From NCBI GenBank assembly GCA_945910425.1, contig CAMDYM010000003.1, positions 1 to 61,586 of the forward strand: DNA of 61,586 bases, given 5' to 3'. This DNA comes from an uncultured Candidatus Melainabacteria bacterium (lineage in GTDB: Bacteria > Cyanobacteriota > Vampirovibrionia > Gastranaerophilales > Gastranaerophilaceae). Shown here in pieces: positions 30,776-35,770 of the stretch. Positions within the stretch are counted from its first letter, which is position 1. Every line of letters begins with the position of its first letter. Below the pieces are notes generated by a model that was not told the DNA's origin, did no database searches, and worked only from the letters and a program-made list of their open reading frames with translations. The position numbers and the translations under genes were made by a program.

Positions 30776-31098
30776 TATAAATTTTCTTTCAATGTTTTTA
30801 TAACTTTCAAGTACAGATTTATTTCTTTATCAGTAGATGAATAAATTAATTTCAGTAATTCTTTTTTATTATTGTTTTCAATTTTATTTAAGCTAAAACC
30901 AAATTCTGAAATATCAATATTCAAAACTTCCAGTATATTTAAAAAATTACCAAACCCCGGTAAATATTTACCTGCTTCAATTCTGCCGATATGCTTATCA
31001 GATAAACCTACCTTTTCAGCGAGTTCAGCTTGTGATAAATTCGATTTCTTTCGAAATTGTTTTATTTTTTCTCCAATAAATTTTTTATCATTATACAT
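30775..31098 (-). CDS. XRE-family HTH regulator
   Basis: The 107-residue protein has an N-terminal helix-turn-helix (IGEKIKQFRKKSNLSQAELA then EKVGLSDKHIGRIEAGKYLP) and a helical C-terminal half. Two others of nearly the same size and plan lie at 35890-36213 and 46814-47140. It lies between the LicD tail and the GT2 head, so it may be a newcomer in a decayed glycan locus. Its target is unknown. Confidence 0.85.
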   Translation of the reverse strand: MYNDKKFIGEKIKQFRKKSNLSQAELAEKVGLSDKHIGRIEAGKYLPGFGNFLNILEVLNIDISEFGFSLNKIENNNKKELLKLIYSSTDKEINLYLKVIKTLKENL

Positions 31099-31267
31099 AT
31101 CTGTACCCTTTACTGAAATTAGTACAATTATGTTGACTTTTAAACTTCGTTTCTATAACATTATTATTAATTTGTGATAAAAACATAACCTAATAAAATT
31201 TAAATTGCCGACTTGGCTAATTGTTTAGGATATTCAAATAAACTATAAAAAATAAAAAGGAATATAA

Positions 31268-31372
31268 ATGAAAGTTAGTATAATAGTACCTGTATATAAT
31301 GTAGAAAAGTATTTAAGAAGATGTTTAGATTCACTTATTTCTAATATAATAAGATTTTCCAAAAATGTTTAA
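31268..31372 (+). pseudogene. Truncated family 2 glycosyltransferase (N-terminus only)
   Basis: AAAGGAA then ATG starts MKVSIIVPVYNVEKYLRRCL DSLI, the opening of GT-A glycosyltransferases. After DSLI the sequence changes to SNIIRFSKNV and stops: 34 residues against about 300 for a real enzyme. The start signals are intact but the DXD motif and the rest are absent. In the 346-base gap 31099-31444 nothing else is coding; it also holds the promoter at 31381-31409. Confidence 0.75.
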
Positions 31373-31380
31373 AACAATAC

Positions 31381-31409
31381 TTGATTTTTAACTGTTTATA
31401 CGTTATAAT
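31381..31409 (+). promoter_or_regulatory. Sigma70-type promoter for the 63-residue gene
   Basis: TTGATT (31381-31386), 17 bases, TATAAT (31404-31409), 35 bases before the ATG at 31445. Confidence 0.7.
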
Positions 31410-31444
31410 AGCTTACTGTAACCGATACTTTAAGGGGTAAATTT

Positions 31445-31636
31445 ATGGTAGAAAAAATCACTATTCGTTCAGACAGAGCAACAGATTACAAATTTATGTA
31501 CAAAGGAGAAGAAGTTGTTCTTGGCGCAGGAAAAATTATTGGTATAGCTGATGGGTTAGAACACGTTGTTCTTCCGACTTGTGCTATGAAAATTATGAAT
31601 AATTTAATTGTTATTAAAGACGATGTAAAAAAATAA
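31445..31636 (+). CDS. Small protein of unknown function (63 residues)
   Basis: The protein has predicted beta-strands (KITIRSDRATDYKFMYKGEE) with a Gly-containing middle and a basic tail. It has one Cys, no signal peptide and no membrane span. It has a good promoter, AAGGGG Shine-Dalgarno and its own terminator, so it is very likely expressed. No family is recognised. It is the last gene before the proposed origin. Confidence 0.7.
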   Translation: MVEKITIRSDRATDYKFMYKGEEVVLGAGKIIGIADGLEHVVLPTCAMKIMNNLIVIKDDVKK

Positions 31637-31673
31637 AATATTTAACATAAAACATAATAAAAGCAATTATATG

Positions 31674-31702
31674 AGATCGAAAATTAATATTTTCGGTCTT
31701 TT
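31674..31702 (+). terminator. Terminator after the 63-residue gene
   Basis: AGATCGAAAAT and ATTTTCGGTCT form an 11-bp stem with one G-T, followed by TTTTC. Confidence 0.85.
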
Positions 31703-31705
31703 CAT

Positions 31706-32020
31706 TTTTAATAAAATTATCAGTAACAAACTTATCGACTTATCAATTTATTGACTTTTATTAATATATAACAATATAAATATATAAATAAATTATATTA
31801 ATATTAATCATGATAGTAGTGTCAAAATATTTGTAGAAAACTCTCAAAACTATGATTATTATTTAATAACAAATTGTTTAAATTTTGTAGAAAACTTTTT
31901 ATAAATTCTATAAAAAATGTTTAAAACTTATAATAATATCAATATTAAAATAAATAATGTAGAAAACTAAAACTTTTCTACAAAAAATTAACAATCTTTT
32001 CTACAATTTATAGTATAATA
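31706..32020. other. oriC: Candidate chromosomal replication origin (oriC)
   Basis: This very AT-rich gap has five copies of TTTTCTACA: inverted at 31832-31840, 31886-31894 and 31958-31966, direct at 31974-31982 and 31997-32005. The three inverted copies extend to TGTAGAAAACT. The box differs by one base from TTTTCCACA, the cyanobacterial DnaA box. The left part (31740-31820) is nearly pure A/T, like an unwinding element. dnaN lies 2.6 kb downstream, and base skew on the plus strand changes here. The gap (31637-32052) contains no credible gene. The origin call is an inference; a multi-site operator is the alternative. Confidence 0.5.
31729..31758. repeat. Dispersed GATAAG-type repeat, copy 2
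   Basis: The minus strand reads AAGTCAATAAATTGATAAGT then CGATAAGTTTG. TTGATAAG-CGATAAGTT matches 35751-35768 with one change. It lies at the left edge of the proposed origin. Confidence 0.4.
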
Positions 32021-32052
32021 ATCCTGTTAAAATTATAGGAGAATTTATATAA

Positions 32053-33774
32053 ATGGAATTAAGTCAGAAATTTATAAATATTGTAGAGAATATAAAAAAC
32101 TTTTGCAAAAAACATTCTGAAGGTTTGACTATACTTGGACTTGCGGTAGTATTTTATTTTATATTTTTTCACGGAATTGGAACATATTCACTGATGGATG
32201 TTGATGAAACAAGATATGTTTCAATGTCAAGAGATATGTTTTTGTCAAAAGATTTTATGACTTTATATTTAAACGGTGAATATTTCTTTGAAAAACCTCC
32301 GTTATATTTTTGGCAGGAATGTTTGTCATTTTTTATATTTGGCGGAAAGATTAATGAATTTACCGCAAGATTTCCTGTTGCGTTACTCGGATTTTTGTTT
32401 TCTTTTATTGTTTATTTTACGTCAAGAAAAAGAATTAACAGAAGATTTGGGGTATTTACGTCTTTAATTTTAGCAACATCTTTAGAATTTATAATGCTTG
32501 CAAGATATGCAATACTTGATATTGTTTTAACATTTTATATAGGTTTGGCATTGATTTGCTATTTTCAGGTATATTTTTGTCAGGAACATCATAAAAAATA
32601 TTACTGGTGGGCATTTTATGCTTTCTCAGGGCTTGCGGTTATGGCAAAAGGTATTCCGGGATTTGTAATTCCGTTTGGTACCGTATTTTTTACTTCTATT
32701 ATGGCTAAGAGATTTAAAGAAATTTTTAAACCTGTTTTTATGCTGCCCGGGATAATTTTATTTTCTTTAATAGTTTTGCCGTGGCATATTATAATGTTAA
32801 AAATTCATAATCCGTTATTTTTTAACGAATATATAATGAAACATCATATTCATAGATTTTTCCATGTTGCAAATGATGATATAGGAAGAAAACAACCGTT
32901 TTATTATTATTTTCTTGTTGTTTTATGGGGATTTATTCCTTGGGTATTTTCAATGATTGGAGTGTTTATTGATAAATTGAAAAACTTAGAAAAACAGCAT
33001 TATATTGAAAAGATTAAAAACTTTGATTTTTATTCACTTGATAATGTACATAAACAACTTGCTCTTTGCTGGGTTTGCGCTGCGTGGATAATGTTGTTTT
33101 TCTCATCTTCAAGTACAAAACTTGTAACATATATTCTTCCGATTTATTATCCGCTGTCGCTTATTGTCGGGTTAATGTGGATAGATTATGTTGATAGGAA
33201 AAAGCATGAAAAACCTATAAATTTATCAGTTCAAATTTTTGGATGGTTTTGTGTAATTTTTGGTTTTGCTGCAATGTTTACTCCGTTATATTTGCCTGTT
33301 CAATTAGAAGACGATATAGCCGAGATGAGATGGTTTGCTTTAATATGTGTTTTAATTCTCGGTATTGGAACATTGTTATTTGTAAAATATAAAAAATATA
33401 TGGGAGTTTTTGTATTTTATGTTTTATTTATGACAGTTGTTTCAGCGTTTATAACAGAAGAACTTTACGAAGTTGATTACAGATTCGGTCAGGCTGATTT
33501 GGTAGAATTTGCAACTTATGCTAAAAATAAAGACTATACGATTTCAACAGTAGGATTAAACAGAAAATATTCACTTCTTTATTATAACGATGAAAAAGTT
33601 GATTTTGGTAAAGATTTGACAAAAAATCCAAAATTAATAAAAGATGTAAATGCAGATTTAAAAAAGAAAAATAACGTTGTTATTATAAAAAATAAAGAAA
33701 TGGATTTAATAAATAAACTGGATTATGAGGTTGTGAAAGCCGGCAGACGATACACAATGATAAAGGGGAAATAA
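32053..33774 (+). CDS. ArnT/PMT-family membrane glycosyltransferase
   Basis: The 573-residue protein has about 11-12 hydrophobic spans. The first periplasmic loop has MDVDETRYVSMSRDMFLS, the catalytic Asp/Glu region of ArnT-like lipid A transferases, followed by LNGEYFFEKPPLYFW. It would move a sugar from a lipid carrier to lipid A or another envelope acceptor at the periplasmic face. Whether the sugar is 4-amino-4-deoxyarabinose cannot be told: no arn sugar genes are nearby. It follows the proposed origin and starts after AGGAG. Confidence 0.85.
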   Translation: MELSQKFINIVENIKNFCKKHSEGLTILGLAVVFYFIFFHGIGTYSLMDVDETRYVSMSRDMFLSKDFMTLYLNGEYFFEKPPLYFWQECLSFFIFGGKINEFTARFPVALLGFLFSFIVYFTSRKRINRRFGVFTSLILATSLEFIMLARYAILDIVLTFYIGLALICYFQVYFCQEHHKKYYWWAFYAFSGLAVMAKGIPGFVIPFGTVFFTSIMAKRFKEIFKPVFMLPGIILFSLIVLPWHIIMLKIHNPLFFNEYIMKHHIHRFFHVANDDIGRKQPFYYYFLVVLWGFIPWVFSMIGVFIDKLKNLEKQHYIEKIKNFDFYSLDNVHKQLALCWVCAAWIMLFFSSSSTKLVTYILPIYYPLSLIVGLMWIDYVDRKKHEKPINLSVQIFGWFCVIFGFAAMFTPLYLPVQLEDDIAEMRWFALICVLILGIGTLLFVKYKKYMGVFVFYVLFMTVVSAFITEELYEVDYRFGQADLVEFATYAKNKDYTISTVGLNRKYSLLYYNDEKVDFGKDLTKNPKLIKDVNADLKKKNNVVIIKNKEMDLINKLDYEVVKAGRRYTMIKGK

Positions 33775-33929
33775 CAAAAACTAAATTATTAAGAAATGTA
33801 AAAACAGATTTTAAAATGGCTAAAACCCGGTTATAATGCCAGATATGATATAATATGATAGGTGAGGTGCGCTAAAGTCTTTAAAAAAGTTGCCGTAAGC
33901 ACATATACAAAGCATGTGAATGAGACATA

Positions 33930-34504
33930 ATGTCAGAAAAGATTAATTTTGGTCAGGCTTCCGGAATAAATCTAAGCGGTTTAAAAGGCGGTTTGAAGCG
34001 TGAAAATCTTAAATCAGATGAAATGAAATCTATCTTTGATAAGGTAGATACTGATAAAATGGCATTTTAGACGATAATGAAGTAAATCAATTTGCACAGA
34101 ATATTGATAATAAAAAACAAAATAATTTTCTTGATAAAGACGAGGCAAAGGATTTTATAACAAATTTTGGTTTAACTTTTGGTATTGGTCGATATGTTAA
34201 ATCTTTGACAAGTTTAAATAATTTAGGAAAAGCAGGAATTGAAATAACAGGAAAAACTGTTGTTGGTTCAGGAAAAGATTTAATAACAAAAGGTCAGGTT
34301 TCTATTGAAGGTGTATTATTCAACGTTGTTTATTCTTCTGCCGGTAAATTAGTATCATTAAAACCTGTATTATCAAAAGTGGGTATAAACGGTAATACTG
34401 CTACTGTAGTAAATCAAACTGCAATGAATACTGCAAAAACAGAGCTTAAAGATAGTATAGGTGTAAATACATCAGAAACAGTAGAAGTTGATGCTGACAG
34501 TTAA
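33930..34504 (+). pseudogene. EF-hand protein interrupted by a frameshift
   Basis: The first frame begins MSEKINFGQASGINLSGLKG and stops at TAG 34068-34070 after 46 residues. Moving one frame at AAAAT (34056-34060) gives a perfect calcium loop (DTDKNGILDDNE) and continues as EVNQFAQNIDNK, a second weaker EF-like loop (NFLDKDEAKDF), Gly/Val/Ser-rich sequence and a stop at 34504. Restoring one A makes about 191 residues. No signal peptide is visible. The INFGQ start resembles other lineage proteins here. A sequencing error, recent mutation or slippage are all possible. Confidence 0.7.
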
Positions 34505-34604
34505 ATATTTTCACATTAAGTTTTATGTCTAAGACCCTTGTAATTATTTCCTTTTATAAGCTTTTATTCTATACTTTTAGTAAAAGAATTAAGGAGTAAA
34601 GGGT

Positions 34605-35726
34605 ATGAAGTTCATAATTAGAAAAGAAGATTTATTTAACGGAATTAAGATTGTTGAACGTGCAACTTCTCAAAAAGCTGTTCAACCGGTTTTATATAAC
34701 ATTTTAATTGAAGCTTTAGAAAATAATACAGTACGATTAACTGCAACTGATTTGGTTTTAACTGTTGTTACAACTGTTGAAGCTCAAGTGGACGAGGTCG
34801 GTAAAATTACATTACCTGCTAAAAAACTTAACGAAATTGTTTCTAAATTAGGTAACGAACTTGTTACTTTTGAACTTGAACCAAACGGTACAAGTGTTAA
34901 TATTACTTGTAAAAAATCAAAATTTGATATTATAGGTATTTCAGCTTCTGAATTTCCGCCTGAAGTTTCTAATTATGAAATTGATGAAACAAAATGTTTT
35001 GATGTTGAATTAAAACCTTTCTTAAAAGCTATTAAACAAGCAGGTTTTGCTGCTGCTAATTATGAAGTAAGCAATCTTTTATCAGGTATTGTTTGTGATT
35101 TTTCTAACGGAGTCTTAGAAATTGCATCAACTGACGGTAACAGACTTGCAAGGGTTAGAGAAAAACTTACTAATGATATAGCTGAACAAATTCAACTTAT
35201 TATTCCGTCAAGAACTTTGAATGAATTTATGAAAATGGGCGGATTTATTGATGATGAAACAATCAAAATCTGCAAAGATAAATCTACAATCGTTCTAAAA
35301 ACAGAAAAAACTTTAACAATATCAAGACTTTTGGAAGGTCAATTCCCTAAATACAATCAGTTAATCCCGTCAGAAAGTCCAAAACAGGCAATAGTTAATG
35401 TTTCACAACTTATTTCAGCATTAGAAAGAGTTTCTGTAATGGTTAATGATAAAACAAGTATTGTTAAGATGTTGTTTGCCGATAATGAATTAACCTTGTC
35501 TGCTGATACTCCTGATTCAGGTAAATCAGAAGATAAGATTGATATTCAATACACAGCAGAAGAACTTTTGATTGCATTTAACTACAAATTTGTACTTGAC
35601 GCACTAAGAATTATCGAAAGTGATGAAGTTATAATCGGACTGAATGCAAGTTTATCAGCAACCGTTCTAAAACCAAACAGTGAAGATGATTTTATTTGCT
35701 TGATTATGCCTGTACAAATTAGATAG
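34605..35726 (+). CDS. dnaN: DNA polymerase III beta subunit (sliding clamp)
   Basis: DnaN forms the ring clamp that tethers the replicative polymerase. The 373-residue protein starts MKFIIRKEDLFNGIKIVERA and has the three clamp repeats, with TDLVLTVVTTVEAQV, ASTDGNRLARVREKL and a family-type end CLIMPVQIR that forms the partner-binding pocket edge. The start has AAGGAG. dnaA and recF are not adjacent. In some cyanobacteria the origin lies next to dnaN, which gives weight to the box cluster at 31.8-32.0 kb. Confidence 0.97.
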   Translation: MKFIIRKEDLFNGIKIVERATSQKAVQPVLYNILIEALENNTVRLTATDLVLTVVTTVEAQVDEVGKITLPAKKLNEIVSKLGNELVTFELEPNGTSVNITCKKSKFDIIGISASEFPPEVSNYEIDETKCFDVELKPFLKAIKQAGFAAANYEVSNLLSGIVCDFSNGVLEIASTDGNRLARVREKLTNDIAEQIQLIIPSRTLNEFMKMGGFIDDETIKICKDKSTIVLKTEKTLTISRLLEGQFPKYNQLIPSESPKQAIVNVSQLISALERVSVMVNDKTSIVKMLFADNELTLSADTPDSGKSEDKIDIQYTAEELLIAFNYKFVLDALRIIESDEVIIGLNASLSATVLKPNSEDDFICLIMPVQIR

Positions 35727-35729
35727 TAT

Positions 35730-35770
35730 AAAGTCGATAAATCTATGAGTTGATAAGACGATAAGTTCTT
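35730..35770. repeat. Dispersed GATAAG-type repeat, copy 3
   Basis: AAAGTCGATAAATCTATGAG then TTGATAAGACGATAAGTTC follows the dnaN stop directly. Related copies are at 31729-31758 and 21221-21249, both on the minus strand. Confidence 0.4.

Follow-up and report, generated by a model that had tools for sequence, protein, structure and literature searches.

Where chromosome replication starts in the Gastranaerophilales (Melainabacteria) is the question raised by a short gap in the DNA studied here. The window (the whole stretch of DNA that was analysed, 61,586 bp) is the complete contig C3 of a 1.76 Mb assembly of 96 contigs, and it belongs to this group, whose members carry the names Candidatus Gastranaerophilales or Melainabacteria. 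In Synechococcus elongatus, Anabaena 7120 and Cyanothece 51142, oriC lies beside dnaN and contains TTTTCCACA boxes (PMC4674748). A sequence-only reading of the window had proposed a candidate oriC in an AT-rich gap near dnaN, with TTTTCTACA as the DnaA box. Comparison with related genomes indicates that this gap is very probably the chromosomal replication start of this Gastranaerophilales bacterium. Among the open-access papers searched, none gave an earlier account of an oriC from Gastranaerophilales or Melainabacteria.

The box cluster and its surroundings

The region between the 63-aa ORF, which ends at 31636, and the ArnT-like ORF, which starts at 32053, was confirmed to be free of genes (31637-32052). 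It contains five copies of TTTTCTACA in both orientations within 174 bp (31832-32005), exactly as had been reported (Table 1). The full window has seven copies compared with 1.6 expected, and 100 shuffles reached at most four. Genome-wide, 54 copies are scattered over the 1.76 Mb assembly and the group in the window is the sole cluster; even scatter predicts about 2e-9 clusters as large as this one. Three or more clustered 9-mers resembling DnaA boxes are expected in the intergenic region of an origin, and the gap has five. The cyanobacterial box type, TTTTCCACA, is not present in the gap, and the 37 classical boxes (TTTTCCACA or TTATCCACA) counted across the genome show no clustering. When the clustering of all 9-mers was scanned, TTTTCTACA or 9-mers overlapping it ranked at the top in most stretches, with the exception of genome G031, in which repeats at 257 kb ranked above TTTTCTACA.

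Table 1. Features of the putative origin and its flanks (window coordinates).
Feature	Position	Strand	Remark
63-aa ORF upstream of origin	31445..31636	+	without family match
Intrinsic-terminator-like stem-loop	31673..31700	+	closes 63-aa ORF; left limit of origin gap
AT-rich duplex unwinding element (DUE, predicted)	31741..31804	.	AT-rich in aligned relatives too
DnaA-trio-like tract TAA TCA TGA TAG TAG	31805..31819	+	trios read 3'-GAT GAT ... away from box
Spacer between trio and box 1, 12 nt	31820..31831	.	equal length in aligned relatives
DnaA box 1 (predicted), TTTTCTACA	31832..31840	-	offset 0; unwinding-proximal, faces trio
DnaA box 2 (predicted), TTTTCTACA	31886..31894	-	offset +54, kept in relatives
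DnaA box 3 (predicted), TTTTCTACA	31958..31966	-	offset +126
DnaA box 4 (predicted), TTTTCTACA, inverted	31974..31982	+	offset +142
DnaA box 5 (predicted), TTTTCTACA, inverted	31997..32005	+	offset +165
ArnT-like GT-C glycosyltransferase	32053..33774	+	neighbour only
dnaN, DNA polymerase III beta subunit	34605..35726	+	TIGR00663, E 5e-82

An AT-rich stretch of about 80 bases does lie next to the boxes, but its description as almost pure A/T was slightly strong, since 31741-31820 is 90% A/T; it ranks among the top two 80-mers of the window for A/T content, and its AT-richness is conserved in relatives, as expected of an unwinding element. The distance from the cluster to dnaN is 2.6 kb, as had been stated. 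The gap is linked to dnaN, and dnaA is found elsewhere, on contig C77. In genera g2, g3, g10, g11 and g26 and at locus L034, the cluster adjoins dnaN or is at most about 2 kb away. In the window's own genus the neighbours of the cluster vary, and an ArnT-like gene is often on its right. The intergenic gap resembles the cyanobacterial oriC in being AT-rich and in having a cluster of DnaA boxes that adjoins dnaN in most genera, whereas the ArnT-like and other genes between origin and dnaN in the window's genus do not.

Some other features of the flanks were observed. The 63-aa ORF shows 95-96% identity in relatives, compared with 70-90% for its neighbours. The GATAAG repeat that had been noted is a GATAAG-NN-GATAAG pair at 31731-31744 on the minus strand; a second pair at 35752-35765 on the plus strand completes a flank around the ArnT-like/dnaN block. 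The window holds no further copy and nearly all loci of relatives lack it, and it may be a small repeat tied to local rearrangement. Positions 31000-35000 matched no Rfam RNA family.

Conserved spacing and strand skew

Using the window's dnaN as query, 43 loci of relatives were retrieved, and about 14 of these have the same cluster no more than a few kb from dnaN. When about 26 loci were aligned on the DUE-side box, the box offsets were almost fixed, at 0, 43 or 54, 86 and 126 on the minus strand and at 142 and 165 on the plus strand; the pairing of the two plus boxes, 23 bp apart (31974 and 31997), is conserved in relatives. Of 286 genomes from the order, 84 had close pairs of TTTTCTACA (12-16 nt between boxes) compared with 3 for the reversed pattern used as a control, and 152 had wider pairs compared with about 26. 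The matches are usually confined to one site per genome, so the concern that the boxes might be scattered evenly did not hold: the cluster is single in the window's genome and recurs across the order. Families f2, f3 and f4, and possibly f7, also have such pairs, and therefore the TTTTCTACA word is at least nearly order-wide.

The sequence between the proximal box and the DUE is also constrained. TARTAR stands exactly at positions -18 to -13 from the proximal box in 24 of 30 loci (shuffles gave a mean of 0.35 and a maximum of 3). In the aligned relatives, T is kept at every third base (-27, -24, -21, -18 and -15), with TA[A/G] at -18 and -15. In the oriC of Bacillus subtilis, the basal unwinding system (BUS) consists of DnaA-boxes #6 and #7 and DnaA-trios (PMC6669920, PMC8287927), and the orientation of the box matters (PMC6669920). 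Published spacer lengths peak at 10-13 bp, and the trios have the consensus 3'-GAT-5' (PMC8287927). The order of the predicted box, spacer, trio and DUE matches that of this system: a box faces a track of 3'-GAT-5'-type trinucleotides over a 12-nt spacer and AT-rich DNA follows. The alignment fits the BUS rule (trios at most 16 bp from the box, at least three NAN motifs and a box facing the trio), and the window taken alone has just two perfect consecutive trios, fewer than its relatives and short of the three motifs that the strict rule asks for. Unlike the BUS, the window has the TTTTCTACA word, a single clear proximal box and only these two perfect trios.

The local shift in base skew described for the window was reproduced, with a sign change of GC skew from minus to plus close to the gap. 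Because the genome of the window is split into 96 contigs, a long contig of a relative was used for cumulative skew (G031, contig C1, 740 kb). There, the cluster is at 313,844 and the minimum of the combined (keto) skew at 306,746, about 7 kb apart, so the proposed skew test came out in favour of the cluster. GC and TA skew are -0.066 and -0.042 to the left of the cluster, and +0.045 and +0.048 to the right. The combined-skew excursion is 17,511, and none of 5000 block shuffles went beyond 7998. TA and combined skew place the minimum at 303-307 kb, whereas GC skew alone gives 490 kb because of a 60-kb block of opposite GC sign. GC skew is greater on the right of the cluster in 13 of 13 loci longer than 6 kb from the window's genus and its kin. 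For 60-kb flanks in ten further genomes and the window, it is greater on the right in nine of 11 and opposite in G150 and G151. Skew across the shorter flanks of other genera is therefore mixed, mostly in the same sense, and GC skew alone is not conclusive for every genus.

DnaA residue 433 and the box word

As the sequence-only reading had pointed out, TTTTCTACA is one base from the cyanobacterial box, with T and not C at position 6 of TTTTCCACA. E. coli D433 is listed among the residues with specific box contacts (PMC7561715). This residue is D in the solved DnaA structures of E. coli, B. subtilis, M. tuberculosis and Aquifex, and in all Cyanobacteriia and other outgroups of the phylum that were read; in the sampled Cyanobacteriia genomes, TTTTCCACA is clustered. 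DnaA was found in 279 of the 286 genomes of the order. The window's own DnaA lacks the standard recognition helix (GGRD-HTT, with Asp at E. coli position 433) and has K, as have nearly all Gastranaerophilales DnaAs read, with R in a few. Box position 6 (T not C) and DnaA residue 433 (K not D) thus both set the window apart from cyanobacterial oriC. A tree of DnaA domain III, from which residue 433 itself was excluded, shows that D/K splits the order from the outgroups once and that K changed to N once inside the order.

A shift of the box from TTTTCCACA to TTTTCTACA across the order is strongly supported by these comparisons, and the proposal that the DnaA box of this lineage had drifted to TTTTCTACA gains a counterpart in a changed residue of the DNA-reading helix of DnaA. 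The box has apparently drifted together with its initiator. Residue 433 may be the cause of the box change; the evidence that ties it to the box is correlative, because D to K and K to N are just two evolutionary events.

The second of these events is found in genera g17, g18 and g22, in which residue 433 is N (once T). Wider TTTTCTACA pairs occur in 0 of 34 genomes of these genera compared with 152 of 252 others (Fisher 5e-13, uncorrected for kinship). Immediately before dnaN they have TTTTGMACA-type boxes in the same layout. The boxes are TTTTGCACA or TTTTGAACA in g18 and g22, with TTATGAACA in one g18, and TTTTAAACA, TTTTACACA, TTTTGCACA or TTTTGAACA in g17; g22 keeps the exact 12-nt spacer and an exact TTATTACTATTATTA trio. 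We therefore regard as somewhat better than even the possibility that the code switched twice, with D433K accompanying TTTTCCACA to TTTTCTACA at the base of the order and K433N accompanying TTTTCTACA to the TTTTGCACA/TTTTGAACA type in g17, g18 and g22. One helix residue would then largely set the DnaA box, and its co-evolution with the box would be visible in natural origins.

Two other lineages differ at the same helix. In genus g19 the DnaA motif is (K/R)HQT, and at locus L263, upstream of dnaN, a repeated TTTTCTGCATGTTT-like word lies near a TACTTACTACTATAA track; g19 is possibly a further case of box change. In family f8 of the same class (L211-L213), the recognition motif of DnaA is NRTHSS, with T at residue 433, and the loci read showed neither a box nor an origin-like gap before dnaN.

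To our knowledge, the DnaA box is near-universal in bacteria and lineages with a changed word are few. In Thermotoga maritima, the box is AAACCTACCACC and domain IV carries substitutions (Ozaki 2006, cited in PMC6669920). Thermotoga is a precedent for a DnaA box altered along with domain IV residues, and it is a large change in one lineage, whereas in the Gastranaerophilales a single base and about one residue have changed throughout the order, within which a second shift is nested.

The origin reading and its alternatives

Independent lines of evidence make an oriC in this gap near-certain, and we give a probability of about 0.92 to the joint reading that 31741-32005 is oriC, where five TTTTCTACA boxes would be bound by DnaA, with extension over the trios, opening of the DUE and a box changed through an altered recognition helix. 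The candidate oriC claim is supported by the single cluster, the fixed spacing, the link to dnaN and the skew turn of the relative. DnaA would load on the five boxes and spread from box 1 over the spacer onto the trio tract. It would then open the DUE so that the helicase can be loaded, and the inverted far boxes probably serve in folding or in loading additional DnaA. TTTTCTACA would differ from TTTTCCACA because the DnaA of the order reads with K (rarely R) at position 433 and not with D.

The boxes could instead be operators of a transcription factor for the ArnT-like gene or dnaN, with no origin present. In favour of this, a promoter-like match at 31988-32016, immediately ahead of the ArnT-like ORF, overlaps or borders the two boxes on the right, and such an ORF is on the right in many loci of the genus. 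However, loci L007, L010 and L044 have the cluster without an ArnT-like gene at its right, as do the other genera read, where it can stand directly beside dnaN. Since its neighbour is dnaN in other genera and differs from locus to locus in the genus of the window, the cluster is not an ArnT operator, and that candidate, which the earlier reading had itself asked to be checked, was dropped. The conserved box orientation, 12-nt spacer and trio phase and the skew turn at the cluster in G031 also argue against operators of either kind, which we consider extremely improbable. Clusters of DnaA boxes with roles in titration or in the control of initiation exist in other bacteria, and the boxes by themselves would look identical at a datA- or DARS-like site that binds DnaA and is not the start site. 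Against such a site, the genome has no other cluster, trio and DUE are present, and the cluster adjoins dnaN in other genera and, in a relative, lies where the skew turns; this explanation has very little probability.

A third alternative is a true origin at which TTTTCTACA is bound by another initiator, with the residue change in DnaA unrelated to it. Binding of TTTTCTACA by DnaA is a prediction, dnaA is unlinked to the cluster (C77), and some sampled cyanobacterial genomes had no DnaA match. On the other side, nearly all genomes of the order have DnaA, TTTTCTACA differs by a single base from the DnaA box of cyanobacteria, the proximal box faces the DnaA-trio track as in known origins, and residue 433 changes where the box changes. 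We regard another initiator as very unlikely, and DnaA acting at 31741-32005 remains the preferred reading.

With this reading, a large group of uncultured bacteria from the gut gains an origin, whose position is needed when growth rates are estimated from the coverage of metagenomes. Origin finders keyed to TTATCCACA or TTTTCCACA could miss that of the Gastranaerophilales. With an order-wide change of box and residue followed by a second change, the switching of the code between initiator and origin becomes a simple swap experiment.
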